From: Planctomycetales bacterium
Lineage (GTDB): Bacteria; Planctomycetota; Planctomycetia; Isosphaerales; Isosphaeraceae
Direction of reading: 5' to 3'
DNA: 36,813 nt
Assembly (NCBI GenBank): GCA_027451885.1
Contig: DAIDHX010000211.1
Coordinates: 1 to 36,813, forward strand
The position numbers and the translations under genes were made by a program. Shown piece by piece: positions 9,080 through 15,346 of the stretch (position 1 is the stretch's first letter; each line of letters opens with the position of its first letter). Under the pieces are notes generated by a model. It saw nothing but the letters and a program-made list of their open reading frames with translations, had not been told where the DNA came from and did no database searches.

Positions 9080-12000
9080 TCACTGGGTCGGGGCATAGCG
9101 CGTGTCAAGCGAGCTCATGCCCGAGCCCACCCGCGTGCCACCCCCCATCCTGGGCGTGATCTGGATCGCTGCCATGTAGCTTCCTCGCTGCGGATCCACC
9201 GACAATCCCAGCGTTGTCAGATAGTCCGCGCCAATCCGTGTGAACGAAAACATCGACGCCAGCAGGATGGCGTCGCCAAAATCGTACGAAGTTGAATACG
9301 TAGCATACCACTTGGGGCTTAGCCAATAGCTGATCGAGGCATTGAGCGCGGATGTGTGAATCGGACCCGTGTCGATGATCGAGTAGCCCAGGAAGTAATT
9401 GGTCCGCGGCGGCCGGCTGAGCGAAACGCCCGTCGTGACGATCGTCAGCCCGTTCGGGTTGTAGCCCTGCACCAGATTATTGGAAAGCGGCTGGCTCCCC
9501 TGGAGCTTCCAGAAGTCGAACCAGCCGGTTGAGATAATGCTGGTGCGGTCGCCCACGAACCACTGCCAGTTATACATGGCCTGGCCCCAGGGCACGCCGA
9601 AGTTATCGCGTGACGCCGCGGGGAAATAGGTGGTCGTGGCGTCGAGCGTCATGTAATCGACGATCCGCCGCTGGCCGATCGGCCCGCGCTTGGTCTGGAG
9701 CCGCTGATGCACGCCAAGCTGCACGGTCTGGATCGAGCCCTGAATATCGGTCGTCCCGGTGATCGGGGAGAGCGTCTGCCTCAAGAGCAAGTGCCTGGGA
9801 TCGTAGGGCGTGGGTAGAATACCCCCCACGAAGTTGGTGAGCGCCAGGTATCTGCGCACGTATTCGTAAGTATTATCGTCGAGCGTGTCCTGAATGCCGA
9901 TCTGGTTGAGATTCACGTTGGAATAGGCGGCGCGGGCGTCGAGAAACAGGCTGATTTTGTTATTGAGTCCGTGCACGTTGAGCAGCTCGCTTTCAGCCTT
10001 GCGATACTGCTTGTAAGCCGTGATCTCAGCGCGTGTACCGAATGCGCCCCAGACACGCCCCAGTGCGCCTCCAGGCGAATGGCCAAGCGGCCCGCCGCCA
10101 AGCTGGTCGCTCCAGCCCACCGCCTGCCCCTGCACGTACGGCACCATCCGGAAGACGTTGCCGAAATTCAGCGGCAGATCGAGCTCGTGGTTCGTAAAGA
10201 CACGCCCCGATGACCAGACCCCGCTCGTGTTCGAAATCGGGTCGTACGGCATGTAAGCAAACAGGTTCGGATTATTGACCATGATGTCGGTGTGCACAAC
10301 CGCATAGTCAACGCCCGTGTGATTGTAATACACAAGCCGATTGCCCAGGTATGACCCGCCAAGCTTGTAATAATCCAGCCGGGGCAGCCACTGGGTATCC
10401 GTATACCAGTTCTGAAGAACAGCCGAGGTCCACAGCTCGATCGCCTCGTTGTTCTTCTGGTAGATTCCGTAGCCGATGGTTTCCTGATCGGAGCCCGTGT
10501 CGAAGAGCTGCTTGTAGTATTCCTCAATGAAGTTACGATCCGAGGCGTAAGCGACTTCGAACTGGGCTCGGAGCTCTTCGAACTGGTGATCCTCGTCCTC
10601 GGGCAGGAATTGCTGGAAATGCCGGAAGTTGAACCGGCCGCGGTACGTTTGAAACTGGGGGTCGGCCGAGCGCTGAAATCCCGCTCGACCCGCGCCCGGC
10701 GGACCATTGGTGACGATCGCCGGCCCCGAGCCCAGCACGTCCGTGCCCAGGTCCTTGAGGCCGTAGATATCAAAATAGCCGTAATAGTTATGGGTGAAAT
10801 TGTCCTGGGGCGGGCCGTGGTGGTAAGGATCGGTTAGGTCGCGGATCAGGTCGTTGCCGAACCAGCCCATTTCACTGCCGAGTGCAGGGAATTGCTTGGT
10901 CCGCGCGCTGAGGTAATCAACATCGATGTTCCAGATATCGATCCAGTCGGGCTTCTTGACGCCGAGGAAGCGAAAGCCGTTCCAGTCAGCCATGATTTGC
11001 TGGCCGAAGTAGTTGTTTGTGCGGAAGAAGAACTGGCGTAGAGGGGGCTCGAGATCGTCGATATCCGCGACGACGCGCGGCCAGTAAAAGAACGGGATCC
11101 AGCCCGCGAAGTAGAAGTTCTGGCGTGCGTCGATGCGCCAGATGGTCTCTTCGTCGGCCGCGGGATTGCCGGTTGGAGGCGCTTTTTTGCCGGTGTTCGG
11201 ATCGGTGGTGGGGCGTGAATAGCGAGTCAGATCGATGGACTTGTTCCAGAAGATATAGCCTGGATCGGGGAAGCGCGAGCCGGTGGTTGCCGCGCGTTCG
11301 AGCCGGATCTGGGGATATTCCTCGAGCTTGTAGGAGCCGTTGGGCAACTGGACCGGCCTGCGGAACTGATCCAGCCTGGGCGACTTGATTTTCACGGGCT
11401 GCAAGACCCCGGGCGCGAAGACGTTGATCTCGGCGTTGGGTGCGACCACGCGATCGGTCAGGAAGTCGTAATACAACCGGGGTGCGCGAATGGTGCGCTG
11501 ATCCCCCTTGCCGGCGAACTTGTTCTCGTCCTGGCGGAGGATGACATTGCCCTCGAGGTAGACCTCCATGGGCTGGCTGGAGTCGTCGACCCAGAGCTCG
11601 CCATCGGGCCCGGCGACCGGCGTGCCCTTTTCGCGGGTGGGCCCGCGCCAGACGACGGCTTCGTCGGCCTCGATATCGATCACACCCTGCTTGGGGGTGC
11701 GGGTGATGATATTGATGCCGCCGCGGATAATGAAGGTGCGCACGCCTTCGGGCGTGGTGGGGAGTTCGCGGATCGTGAACGGTCGGCCGCTGCGGGGGTT
11801 GATTGTCGTGACCCGCTGGGTTCCCGCGATGATGGGAACGGTGGGAGGCGGGGGCTTCTTTTTGGCCTCCTTGTCCTGGGGCGTCTCGGGCAGCGCGGGC
11901 ACGGTGACGCCCTCGGGTCCCTCCGCCGGCTGGGTGGGAACGGTGCGCGGCCGGGCGGGCTCGTCCAGATTGGGAACCTGGACCTCCGGCGATCCTTCGA

Positions 12001-12199
12001 TCGGGGGCAGATCCACGTTGGGGCGGCCGTCGTCGGGCACTTGCTGCTGTGCGCGCACGACCGCTGGGTCGGCGGTCCGGGCGGTGGCGCCGGTCGGCTC
12101 GTCCGCCGCCGCGAATCCCGCGGCAACAGGCAGTAAGAGCCAGAGTCCAGGCCACAGCCGGCGGGGCCAGTGGCGGCTTGCTCTCCCCTCGTCCGGCAC
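9080..12199 (-). CDS. lptD: LptD/OstA-like outer-membrane LPS-assembly protein
   Basis: About 1,039 residues from a GTG at 12197-12199, which follows GGGAGGGGAC. An in-frame upstream start at 12334 would add an unlikely basic leader. The signal peptide is RRLWPGLWLLLPVAAGFAAA. A proline-rich linker runs to about residue 130. An OstA/LptA-like beta-jelly-roll follows (PMEVYLEGNVILRQDENKF, RTIRAPRLYYDFLTDRVVA), then a long beta-barrel with alternating aromatic strands. WIPFFYWPRVV resembles the LptD entry to the barrel. The product would insert lipopolysaccharide-type lipids into the outer membrane. The LptD cysteine pairs are not evident, so oxidative maturation as in E. coli is not indicated. 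The downstream kinase-like gene overlaps or abuts it. Confidence 0.85.
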   Translation of the reverse strand: MPDEGRASRHWPRRLWPGLWLLLPVAAGFAAADEPTGATARTADPAVVRAQQQVPDDGRPNVDLPPIEGSPEVQVPNLDEPARPRTVPTQPAEGPEGVTVPALPETPQDKEAKKKPPPPTVPIIAGTQRVTTINPRSGRPFTIRELPTTPEGVRTFIIRGGINIITRTPKQGVIDIEADEAVVWRGPTREKGTPVAGPDGELWVDDSSQPMEVYLEGNVILRQDENKFAGKGDQRTIRAPRLYYDFLTDRVVAPNAEINVFAPGVLQPVKIKSPRLDQFRRPVQLPNGSYKLEEYPQIRLERAATTGSRFPDPGYIFWNKSIDLTRYSRPTTDPNTGKKAPPTGNPAADEETIWRIDARQNFYFAGWIPFFYWPRVVADIDDLEPPLRQFFFRTNNYFGQQIMADWNGFRFLGVKKPDWIDIWNIDVDYLSARTKQFPALGSEMGWFGNDLIRDLTDPYHHGPPQDNFTHNYYGYFDIYGLKDLGTDVLGSGPAIVTNGPPGAGRAGFQRSADPQFQTYRGRFNFRHFQQFLPEDEDHQFEELRAQFEVAYASDRNFIEEYYKQLFDTGSDQETIGYGIYQKNNEAIELWTSAVLQNWYTDTQWLPRLDYYKLGGSYLGNRLVYYNHTGVDYAVVHTDIMVNNPNLFAYMPYDPISNTSGVWSSGRVFTNHELDLPLNFGNVFRMVPYVQGQAVGWSDQLGGGPLGHSPGGALGRVWGAFGTRAEITAYKQYRKAESELLNVHGLNNKISLFLDARAAYSNVNLNQIGIQDTLDDNTYEYVRRYLALTNFVGGILPTPYDPRHLLLRQTLSPITGTTDIQGSIQTVQLGVHQRLQTKRGPIGQRRIVDYMTLDATTTYFPAASRDNFGVPWGQAMYNWQWFVGDRTSIISTGWFDFWKLQGSQPLSNNLVQGYNPNGLTIVTTGVSLSRPPRTNYFLGYSIIDTGPIHTSALNASISYWLSPKWYATYSTSYDFGDAILLASMFSFTRIGADYLTTLGLSVDPQRGSYMAAIQITPRMGGGTRVGSGMSSLDTRYAPTQ

Positions 12200-12548
12200 G
12201 TCCCCTCCCACGCAACGGCCAGGGATCGCCGGCTCGAACGGCCGGCAATCCTTTCTTCGCGACTGTTCGACTCCCCGACACCCGCCGGGCTCCGATGGCT
12301 CGCGAAAGGCTTTCACGAGCCGCCAGTGCGGCAAACCACCCGAACGGGAATCGCTGGACGGACCTTCATCCCGCGCAAGACGTGAAGACGCCGGGATGAA
12401 CGGCCGGAAAGGTAGCCCGAAGGGGCAGGAGCGTCAAGGTCGAACGAGGGAACAACGCAAACCGTCGCGGGGCCTGGAGTCAAGCTTGCGGCGGCCTGTG
12501 GGATTCCGGTGAACGCGAGGTTCCCGAGCCCTGGCGAAGGAGCGTGGC
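12200..12548. other. Spacer between the sigma-cytochrome fusion gene and lptD
   Basis: Frames here on both strands are arginine/proline rich and lack domains. The stretch presumably holds the lptD promoter and leader on the minus strand. I see no clear terminator or core promoter. Confidence 0.4.
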
Positions 12549-14912
12549 TTACCGATTCCCCTCCGGCGCGGCGAGCGTGTTCAGGAACGCCACGAGCTGC
12601 CGCTTGCGCGCGGGCGAGAGATCGCTGTAACGCCTTGCGGAGGTTGAGCCCTGGCCGCCGTGGAGCTGGATCGCCTGCTCGATGGTGGCGGCCCGGCCAT
12701 CGTGCAGGAAGGGCCCGGAATCGCGCAGGCCCCAGAGCGGCGGCGTGCGCCATTCCTGGCTCGATGCCCCCGGCGATCGATCCTTCGGCCGCGCGGCATC
12801 CCCCGCGCGCGCACCGCCCCCCACAAACACGCTATACGACTCGGCGTCGGCGAGCTTCGGCCCCATGTCATGCAGGAGCAGGTCGCTGTAGATCCCCTTC
12901 GCATCACCCAGTGTGGGCGTGTGACAATGCGCACACCCTGCCGTGCGAAAGACCTCCTCGCCCGATTTCGCCAGACTCGCTTCCCGGGCATCGACGGGGT
13001 GATGCGCCACGGGCGCAGGGAGCTTGCGCACGAAGCCGGTGAGTGCATCACATTCTTCCTGATTGAGATCCAGCCCGGGCGCGGCGACTCCCGGCGTACG
13101 CGGATCCGCTCCCTGTCGCTGACCAGGGACTTCGAGCCCGATTTCGCCCGCCGCCGCGGAGAGTACAAAATCCTTGAGCGTGGCCGTCTGCGCCTTCCAA
13201 CCAAAGCGCCCGATCCGCCCATCCTTCAAACGGCTGACCCGGCCGCGATAGACCGCCAGATTACCTGACTTCCGCCTCGCGCCGGCCTCGATCGCCGCGT
13301 CGGGAATGGCGTCGATGACTCCCACGCCAAACAGCGGCGGCGTGTTCCGCTCCGAGAGTCGCACAAGGCTCGACCCATGCAGTCCTGGGAAAAACTTGCG
13401 CCAGGCGGCATACTGGGGGTCGGTGCTGTAGAGATGCAAGACAATGCTACGGCCCTCGCGAAAGCCGGGATGGATGGCGGCCGCGACGGCGGGATCGATG
13501 CGTGCCTGCGCGTTCCTGGGAGTGCCCGAGGGAACGCCGAACTGGTATTCAAACCGGCCCCGTTCAAGGTCCATGCTGAACGCATAGGAATACTGGCCGT
13601 ATCCGAACAATCCGTCGATCAAGGTGGCGATCTGGACGTTCTGATCGAGACCTCCCGCGCCGCCCGCGCCCGCCAGGTAATGACATCCAAGGCAGGACGA
13701 TCCATTGAAGACGGGGCCCAGGCCATCGCCGCCATGGCTGCGCGGGTCGCCCTCGCTCCAGACGCGTTCGAACAGCTCGCGCCCGCTGACAGGACCAGGC
13801 GCGAGGCGAGGTCCGCCCGAGGAGGTGGGCGCGGCCGCGCGCTTTCTGTCGTTTCTCTCGGGGATGGGAGCATTCGGTCGTTGGGGAATCGCGGGTTGAT
13901 CGCTTCCCGGCGGGTCGACCGCGGCCAGCCGAGGTTTTTCGTCCGCGGGCCTGGCGGGGGCTTGCGCGTGGGTCTGGATTTGCTGGGCGGGGGGAACGGC
14001 TGGCTCAGCGGTCGGATGCGATGCGGTGACCGCGGGGCGGGAAGCTGGGCGAGACGCAACGAGCAGGAAGGGCGCCAGCAGCGAGATCCCTGTCAAGGCG
14101 ACGGTACCGAGCTGACGGCGCACGATTGAGGCCGCTGTACGGTCGGCAAGTTGCGCCACGCGGGGTGTGACGGTTGCCGCGCCGGTGCTGCCGCGGGCGC
14201 ATTCCACGGCGGCGCGCGCGGTTTCCCGCGCCCAGCCTGCCTCGAGCGACGTCGCGGCATCGCCCGCCTCCGCAAGCGCTGGACCGACCAGCAAGCTGGC
14301 GCCGCCGAAGCCTCTGCGAACCAGCCGCGACCGCAGTCGATCACGGCCGCGATGCAGCCGAATCTGAACCGTGCCAAGCGGCCAGCCAAGCGCCTCGGCC
14401 GCCTCGGCCTGCGTTTGCCCACGCAGGTAGCAAAGCACAATCGGGGCCTTGTATTTCTCCGGCAGCCGATCGACTTCCGCGTGGATCTCCTCGAGGCCCA
14501 GAAAATCGGCCTCGGCGGCGTATGGTTCGCGCTCGCGCATGATCTCGGCCCTTCGCTGCTCGACGACTCGCGCACGAGTTCGGTCGACCCTGGCTCTGCG
14601 CGCCACGCGAAGCGCCACACCGTGGAGCCAGGAGCCGAGCGAGCCCGGCTTGCGGATCGATCGAGCCCGCCGCGCCAGCACCAGGAACACCGCCTGGGCC
14701 GCGTCTCGGGCATCTTCTCGATCGCGGAGGACGTCGAAACAAACCCGATGCACCATCGGGCCGTGGCGCTCGATCAGCGCGGCGAATGCAGACTCGGCTT
14801 GATCGCCCGATCCGGCGAGAAACCGCCGCAGGAGCTGCTCGTCAGGTGTGTAATCCACCGCACCCGGCTGAGAAACCGCCTCGAGCGCCTGGGCTCTCGC
14901 TTGCGTCGGCAT
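12549..14912 (-). CDS. ECF sigma factor fused through a membrane helix to a di-haem DHOR/DUF1111 cytochrome c domain
   Basis: 787 residues from the ATG at 14912, seven bases after GAGAGGGG. A TTG two codons upstream is less likely. Residue numbers count from that TTG. Region 2 of an ECF sigma factor covers about 27-95 (FAALIERHGPMVHRVCFDVL, DARDAAQAVFLVLARRA). Region 4 covers about 145-200 (RLPEKYKAPIVLCYLRGQTQ, AEALGWPLGTVQIRLHRGRD). One membrane helix lies at about 271-290 (VALTGISLLAPFLLVA). A Pro/Ala linker runs from 291 to 370. A di-haem oxidoreductase follows with haem sites CLGCH (409-413) and CAHCH (662-666), SHGGDGLGPVFN before the first site, and RTPPLWGLRDSGPFLHDGRA near the end. 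The frame is uninterrupted. The topology would put the sigma factor in the cytoplasm and the haems in the periplasm. No separate anti-sigma gene is adjacent. Release by proteolysis or redox signalling is inferred. Confidence 0.9.
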   Translation of the reverse strand: MPTQARAQALEAVSQPGAVDYTPDEQLLRRFLAGSGDQAESAFAALIERHGPMVHRVCFDVLRDREDARDAAQAVFLVLARRARSIRKPGSLGSWLHGVALRVARRARVDRTRARVVEQRRAEIMREREPYAAEADFLGLEEIHAEVDRLPEKYKAPIVLCYLRGQTQAEAAEALGWPLGTVQIRLHRGRDRLRSRLVRRGFGGASLLVGPALAEAGDAATSLEAGWARETARAAVECARGSTGAATVTPRVAQLADRTAASIVRRQLGTVALTGISLLAPFLLVASRPASRPAVTASHPTAEPAVPPAQQIQTHAQAPARPADEKPRLAAVDPPGSDQPAIPQRPNAPIPERNDRKRAAAPTSSGGPRLAPGPVSGRELFERVWSEGDPRSHGGDGLGPVFNGSSCLGCHYLAGAGGAGGLDQNVQIATLIDGLFGYGQYSYAFSMDLERGRFEYQFGVPSGTPRNAQARIDPAVAAAIHPGFREGRSIVLHLYSTDPQYAAWRKFFPGLHGSSLVRLSERNTPPLFGVGVIDAIPDAAIEAGARRKSGNLAVYRGRVSRLKDGRIGRFGWKAQTATLKDFVLSAAAGEIGLEVPGQRQGADPRTPGVAAPGLDLNQEECDALTGFVRKLPAPVAHHPVDAREASLAKSGEEVFRTAGCAHCHTPTLGDAKGIYSDLLLHDMGPKLADAESYSVFVGGGARAGDAARPKDRSPGASSQEWRTPPLWGLRDSGPFLHDGRAATIEQAIQLHGGQGSTSARRYSDLSPARKRQLVAFLNTLAAPEGNR

Positions 14913-15018
14913 GGCCAATCCCCTCTCGGTTGCCCGTCCTCTTGAGAGTAGTGCCGCCGCGAGGGTTCTGTCATTTCACTTTTTCGAGATTTTCACGCGC
15001 TTGCCGCAACGTGGCGGC

Positions 15019-15279
15019 TCATGCGTCCGGGCCCGTTTCCTCGTCTTCCTTTTTGATCTCATCCCCATGCCTGGCCTTGATCACATGATGGAGCGAGGGC
15101 TGAATGATCTCCTGGACCGCGACGATGGCGTGGCCCAGCCCTCCGGGCGTGCCGCGCGAGCCCCGCGGCCTGTGCCCGCTCCTGGACCTTGCATACCAGA
15201 CGAACAGTGAGGTGCCCACGACGATGATCGCGGCAAAAACCAGGAACTCGACGCTACTGGCGGGATCTACCGGACCCAT
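15019..15279 (-). CDS. Small single-pass membrane protein
   Basis: 86 residues. The ATG at 15279 is chosen over an upstream in-frame start because AGGAGG sits eight bases before it. One membrane helix is obvious near the N-terminus (VEFLVFAAIIVVGTSLFVWY), followed by a basic Arg/Gly-rich segment and a charged tail (KKEDEETGPDA). No family is recognised. It is about 107 bases upstream of the sigma-cytochrome fusion on the same strand and could be cotranscribed with it. Function unknown. Confidence 0.65.
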   Translation of the reverse strand: MGPVDPASSVEFLVFAAIIVVGTSLFVWYARSRSGHRPRGSRGTPGGLGHAIVAVQEIIQPSLHHVIKARHGDEIKKEDEETGPDA

Positions 15280-15346
15280 GGCATGCGCCTCCTGGGGACC
15301 ATGGGACGCCGGCTGGTCCTCCGCTCGCTGCACGCGCGCCGTTTTC

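Follow-up and report, generated by a model that had tools for sequence, protein, structure and literature searches.

A putative self-transcribing, membrane-tethered ECF sigma factor fused to a di-haem domain in the Isosphaeraceae

We describe a planctomycete gene that encodes an ECF sigma factor, a single membrane helix, a linker and a DHOR/DUF1111 di-haem domain in one protein, and that is preceded by a promoter-like element found almost nowhere else in its genome. The reading we favor, with somewhat better than even confidence, is that the protein is a membrane-tethered ECF sigma factor that transcribes its own gene, with the outer di-haem domain serving as sensor, product, or both. If this is true, a transcription switch is contained in a single polypeptide, in which a sigma factor is wired across the membrane to a redox-active di-haem domain and has its own gene as its main target. 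The window analyzed here is the whole stretch of 36,813 nucleotides from contig DAIDHX010000211.1 (assembly GCA_027451885.1); the features of the gene are collected in Table 1, with residues numbered in a 789-aa frame that takes the TTG at 14918 as residue 1.

Table 1. Features of the fusion gene and its upstream region (positions in the window)
Feature	Residues	Positions	Strand	Remarks
Sigma-helix-DHOR fusion gene		12549..14912	minus	787 aa from ATG 14912
Promoter-like element TGAAAT-N19-CACTA		14949..14978	minus	sole strict-pattern match in window genome; proposed autoregulatory ECF promoter
Ribosome-binding site GAGAGGGG		14920-14927	minus	read from sequence; likely
Sigma70_r2	48-115	14574..14777	minus	Pfam 5.5e-10
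Sigma70_r4_2	143-196	14331..14492	minus	Pfam 143-195, 2.3e-13
Single membrane helix	270-288	14055..14111	minus	mean hydropathy 2.07
Pro/Ala-rich linker	289-376	13791..14054	minus	fast-evolving
DHOR di-haem domain	377-787	12558..13790	minus	Pfam 3.7e-25, best stretch 651-782
Haem site 1, CLGCH	409-413	13680..13694	minus
Haem site 2, CAHCH	662-666	12921..12935	minus
His753	753	12660..12662	minus	aligned with the di-haem peroxidase sixth haem ligand (Met) and MauG position 294; putative ligand

The initial annotation, which was silent on the strand, proposed that sigma regions 2 and 4, a helix, a Pro/Ala linker, and a DHOR domain with two CxxCH sites follow one another in one 787-aa frame. The gene is on the minus strand, and the reading frame, Pfam, and hydropathy all bear this layout out: Sigma70_r2, Sigma70_r4_2, and DHOR each score above the curated cut-off, and we are nearly certain that sigma factor, helix, linker, and DHOR belong to a single protein. 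The frame is free of stops from 14975 down to 12549, and the ATG listed in Table 1 is the likely start. Just upstream, on the same strand, 15019-15333 encodes a small single-helix protein with no Pfam match. Downstream (9080-12334, minus) is a 1084-aa protein that resembles LptD-type outer-membrane proteins, also with no Pfam match, and next to it a diacylglycerol kinase.

The sigma half has the composition of an ECF factor, with regions 2 and 4 present and no Pfam match to region 3 in the fusion protein, and phmmer matches it to the solved ECF factors SigE, SigW, SigH, and RpoE. No anti-sigma or zinc-finger family was matched by Pfam in the extension at E values up to 1. Two Arg immediately precede the membrane helix, whose predicted orientation is N-in/C-out. 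The linker that follows (∼88-90 aa) is 42% Pro plus Ala. Among three relatives from one genus (G029, G062, and G063), dN/dS is ∼0.24-0.29 for the sigma half and the DHOR half alike, while the linker, with a dN of 0.76-1.2, diverges several-fold faster than both. Both halves are thus under purifying selection while the linker drifts, which is what a tether joining two constrained domains looks like. A further helix is predicted between region 4 and the membrane (residues 229-241; window 14196-14234), with T..AA positions conserved across the wider class of sigma-helix proteins discussed below; it is possibly a self-inhibitory element.

The outer domain matches DHOR/DUF1111 (PF06537) at 88.8 bits against a gathering score of 22. 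In an alignment of 44 DHORs that includes the window sequence, both CxxCH motifs, His683, His739, and His753 are invariant, and the conserved His, Trp, and Gly columns are invariant or nearly so. A structure model of the domain reached a pLDDT of 87 (that of the full-length fusion was poor, at 42), and its best matches among solved structures are hydrazine synthase gamma, MauG, bacterial di-haem peroxidases, and BthA (VIA Z ∼14-16, rmsd 3.3-4.3, 221-259 residues). The domain is accordingly modeled as having the MauG/bacterial cytochrome c peroxidase fold. DHOR/DUF1111 proteins have been described as di-haem peroxidases (PMC3143127); like them, MauG, and the bacterial di-haem cytochrome c peroxidases, the fusion has two CxxCH motifs, the same predicted fold, and a conserved C-terminal motif, but those proteins are stand-alone exported enzymes with no sigma part. 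DHORs also differ from the peroxidases at the sixth ligand of the electron-transfer haem: where the peroxidases have Met, all 44 DHORs have His at the aligned place. Because the C-terminal HDG...H segment pairs with the peroxidase HDG...M in profile alignments, and because His753 falls on MauG position 294 (the aligned chain, 3orv, bears a Y294H change), the electron-transfer haem of the DHOR domain is likely bis-His. Haem binding by the outer domain is predicted from its motifs, and the window genome encodes cytochrome c assembly-type protein families, so haem loading is possible.

Our search for the fusion covered 59 related genomes plus 45 genomes of Isosphaeraceae. We found ten intact fusions and one frameshifted copy, in 11 of the 45 Isosphaeraceae genomes, so the layout is intact in nine genomes besides that of the window. 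No fusions were seen outside the Isosphaeraceae among matches from 398 genomes of the class (two candidates scored per genome). The fusions form two sequence groups. Group A, of ∼800 aa, joins the window protein with those of G029 (804-aa frame; 51% identity over residues 24-786), G062 (798), and G063 (803); group B (G006, G011, G016, G028, G030, and G061) has 910-944 aa, with an extra tail of ∼110 aa. This C-terminal tail after DHOR (L036-L040 and L256) is charged and TPR-like. In the frameshifted copy (G025, L042:6182-8612), sigma and helix share one frame and DHOR lies in another, with the switch in the linker near a C6 run (CCCCCC); a sequencing error, decay, and a programmed shift would look the same here. 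Directly after that copy lies a second tethered sigma gene (L042:9049-11553), whose C-terminal part weakly matches OEP. One group B genome, G061, also encodes a DHOR that starts with a membrane helix and has a Pro/Ala linker but lacks a sigma domain (L258:4488-6485). In quick trees, the sigma halves fall at three spots, with a single clade not rejected (p-AU 0.267), and a single clade is weakly rejected for the DHOR halves (p-AU 0.027). The initial annotation had also proposed a switch encoded by a single gene, in which an ECF factor is tethered to the membrane and the outer part is a complete di-haem domain, with no separate anti-sigma partner. The conservation of the fusion across genomes supports this, with the topology taken from prediction, and the fusion neighborhoods contain no conserved neighbor, operon partner, or anti-sigma gene.

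The initial annotation did not include the promoter-like element, which points to the fusion gene itself as the main target. Just before the ribosome site, group A genes carry TGAAAT-N18/19-nACTA and group B genes a TTGAAAT-N18-CCCAGTA-like pair, with TGAAAT-N18/19-nASTA as the form common to the fusion genes. The pattern TGAAAT-N17-19-NASTA is present upstream of seven of eight fusion genes versus none of 71 class siblings (0.01 expected); G025, one of the seven, played no part in defining the element. When a model built from group B sequences only is applied to group A, it locates the element there at the same distance. Across whole genomes, the strict pattern for group A matches once each in G000, G029, and G025, always at the fusion gene; in G062 it matches twice, once at the fusion gene; the strict group B pattern has a lone match, the fusion gene, in G016, G030, G028, and G011. 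The elements of G063, G006, and G061 are diverged and missed by the strict patterns, which may also overlook weaker targets. Relaxed patterns gave no excess over a reversed-pattern control that would indicate a larger regulon, and the few other relaxed matches that were checked lie mostly within reading frames or are followed by no gene that is convincingly conserved. Stand-alone DHOR genes do not appear to be targets, with one weak match in 110 upstream stretches. The simplest reading of these patterns is an autoregulatory ECF promoter nearly private to the fusion gene, and we consider it quite probable that the fusion sigma factor transcribes its own gene, although the element could instead serve another sigma factor or regulator. 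Autoregulation is common among ECF factors generally, ∼55% of which are predicted to be autoregulated (PMC8103513).

How might such a protein work? In our model, the architecture, conservation, haem motifs, predicted fold, and the promoter-like element with its near-uniqueness come from sequence, while we infer the topology, haem loading, use of the upstream promoter by the sigma factor, and redox gating. The sigma part would be cytoplasmic and the single helix a signal anchor. The exported C-terminal domain would receive two c-type haems. By recognizing its nearly private upstream promoter, the sigma part would transcribe mainly its own gene; activation would yield more of the fused di-haem protein, making sensor, switch, and product one gene. 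The redox, ligand, or folding state of the outer domain would probably set sigma activity, coupled either directly through the membrane or by release of the sigma factor through regulated proteolysis as in IutY. M50-family proteases are encoded in the window genome. The more specific proposal that the redox state of the haems gates the sigma factor is tentative, and we would put it at somewhat less than an even chance.

The fusion belongs to a large class of Isosphaeraceae proteins. Most sigma genes gathered by similarity consist of a sigma factor, ∼60 aa, one helix, and a C-terminal part, the whole extension measuring 217-1246 residues. Pfam matches on 63 class proteins include CarboxypepD_reg (12), Big_1 (10), HlyD_D23 (6), redoxin/AhpC (3), polysaccharide export (3), and others, and OmpH, STN, and Ig-like domains were also seen on sigma-helix siblings. 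The shared sigma-helix chassis carries many outer modules, DHOR among them. Many of these modules, such as HlyD, OmpH, and polysaccharide export, are not sensors by family, and therefore the DHOR part may be cargo or product as well as sensor. A rival reading goes further and takes the sigma factor as a device that boosts, by positive feedback, the expression of a peroxidase-like enzyme anchored in the membrane, with the signal sensed elsewhere or nowhere. Siblings of the same layout that bear HlyD, OmpH, polysaccharide-export, STN, or redoxin domains would fit, as would a promoter element that appears private to the fusion gene and the existence of stand-alone DHOR relatives with their own signal-like N-termini. 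However, positive feedback without a gate would become locked in the on state, a sigma factor held at the membrane suggests regulation, and signals gate the known ECF factors that carry membrane extensions (PMC8999054). We consider DHOR as cargo rather unlikely as the full account, though cargo and sensor may both be true.

Other readings would take the fusion apart. Two proteins might be made in practice, the sigma factor as a soluble protein and DHOR as a secreted one, through an internal start or constitutive cleavage: a signal-peptide-like start could arise at a GTG that lies four codons ahead of the helix, and the fast-evolving linker could be cut. This is improbable, since the window has no in-frame start with a Shine-Dalgarno (SD) sequence near the helix, and the few SD-like stretches that other genomes have near the helix occupy no conserved position; cleavage that depends on a signal would be a form of our main model. 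Still less probable is a sigma half that lacks promoter activity and merely anchors the enzyme in the membrane. In a large family whose outer parts can be exchanged, some copies could decay, but here regions 2 and 4 exceed Pfam cut-offs and match solved ECF factors, the sigma dN/dS is ∼0.25, and the upstream element is conserved. That an assembly error or frameshift fused two genes, as the initial annotation cautioned, is extremely improbable: the draft window genome comprises 316 contigs, but the window has no such join, and other genomes carry the fusion. Given the intact homologues and the missing internal ribosome sites, we rejected the artefact and two-gene readings.

ECF factors with transmembrane C-terminal extensions are already known, namely ECF48, 52, 53, and IutY (PMC8999054). 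IutY of Pseudomonas putida (ECF243) is, like the fusion, a single-gene switch that combines an ECF sigma factor and a membrane-spanning C-terminal part with an outer region, and it is released by Prc/RseP proteolysis (PMC8999054). It differs in having a fused anti-sigma factor and belonging to a cell-surface signaling system, whereas the fusion has a di-haem outer part and no recognizable anti-sigma domain by Pfam. The actinobacterial ECF48/52/53, e.g., SCO4117, share a C-terminal extension with a transmembrane helix, an outer domain, and a Pro-rich outer stretch, but they are described with a zinc-finger anti-sigma region and, for SCO4117, a carbohydrate-binding domain, and no haem domain is reported there (PMC8999054). 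By the open literature searched, what is new is a di-haem oxidoreductase extension with a near-private promoter; we found no paper on a sigma-DHOR fusion in that literature, with the main ECF classification papers outside the search. Closer in taxonomy, planctomycete ECF groups with long C-terminal extensions, WD40 or kinase, were reportedly described by Jogler in 2012 and Wiegand in 2020; they have the phylum and the long extensions in common with the fusion.

Self-transcription may extend beyond the fusion. We think it nearly as likely as not that Isosphaeraceae genomes each hold many tethered ECF factors, each with its own outer domain and each mainly transcribing itself from a private promoter whose -10 (CACTA) is shared and whose -35 is individual, which would amount to an orthogonal sigma/cargo library that includes the di-haem protein. 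Of 70 class genes, 24 have ACTA in the 40-nt bin that spans 80-120 nt ahead of the sigma domain, versus 11 in the ten other bins combined. The element of another ortholog set, TGTAGCA-N17-CACTAC, differs from that of the fusion and is likewise nearly private: its genome-wide matches in G022, G028, and G011 lie upstream of the gene itself, apart from one additional site in G011. This suggests that the class holds many insulated self-transcribing sigma genes, but the pattern is only a lead because close pairs can keep upstream DNA by descent alone. If it holds class-wide, planctomycetes have evolved many mutually insulated sigma factor/promoter pairs, which would bear on the question of why their ECF factors are so numerous and would supply natural orthogonal parts. 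In other ortholog sets (L145, L149, L187, and other class genes), the region ∼80-160 nt before the sigma domain has conserved, bipartite promoter-like elements specific to each set, with an A-tract, an individual -35, and often CACTA.
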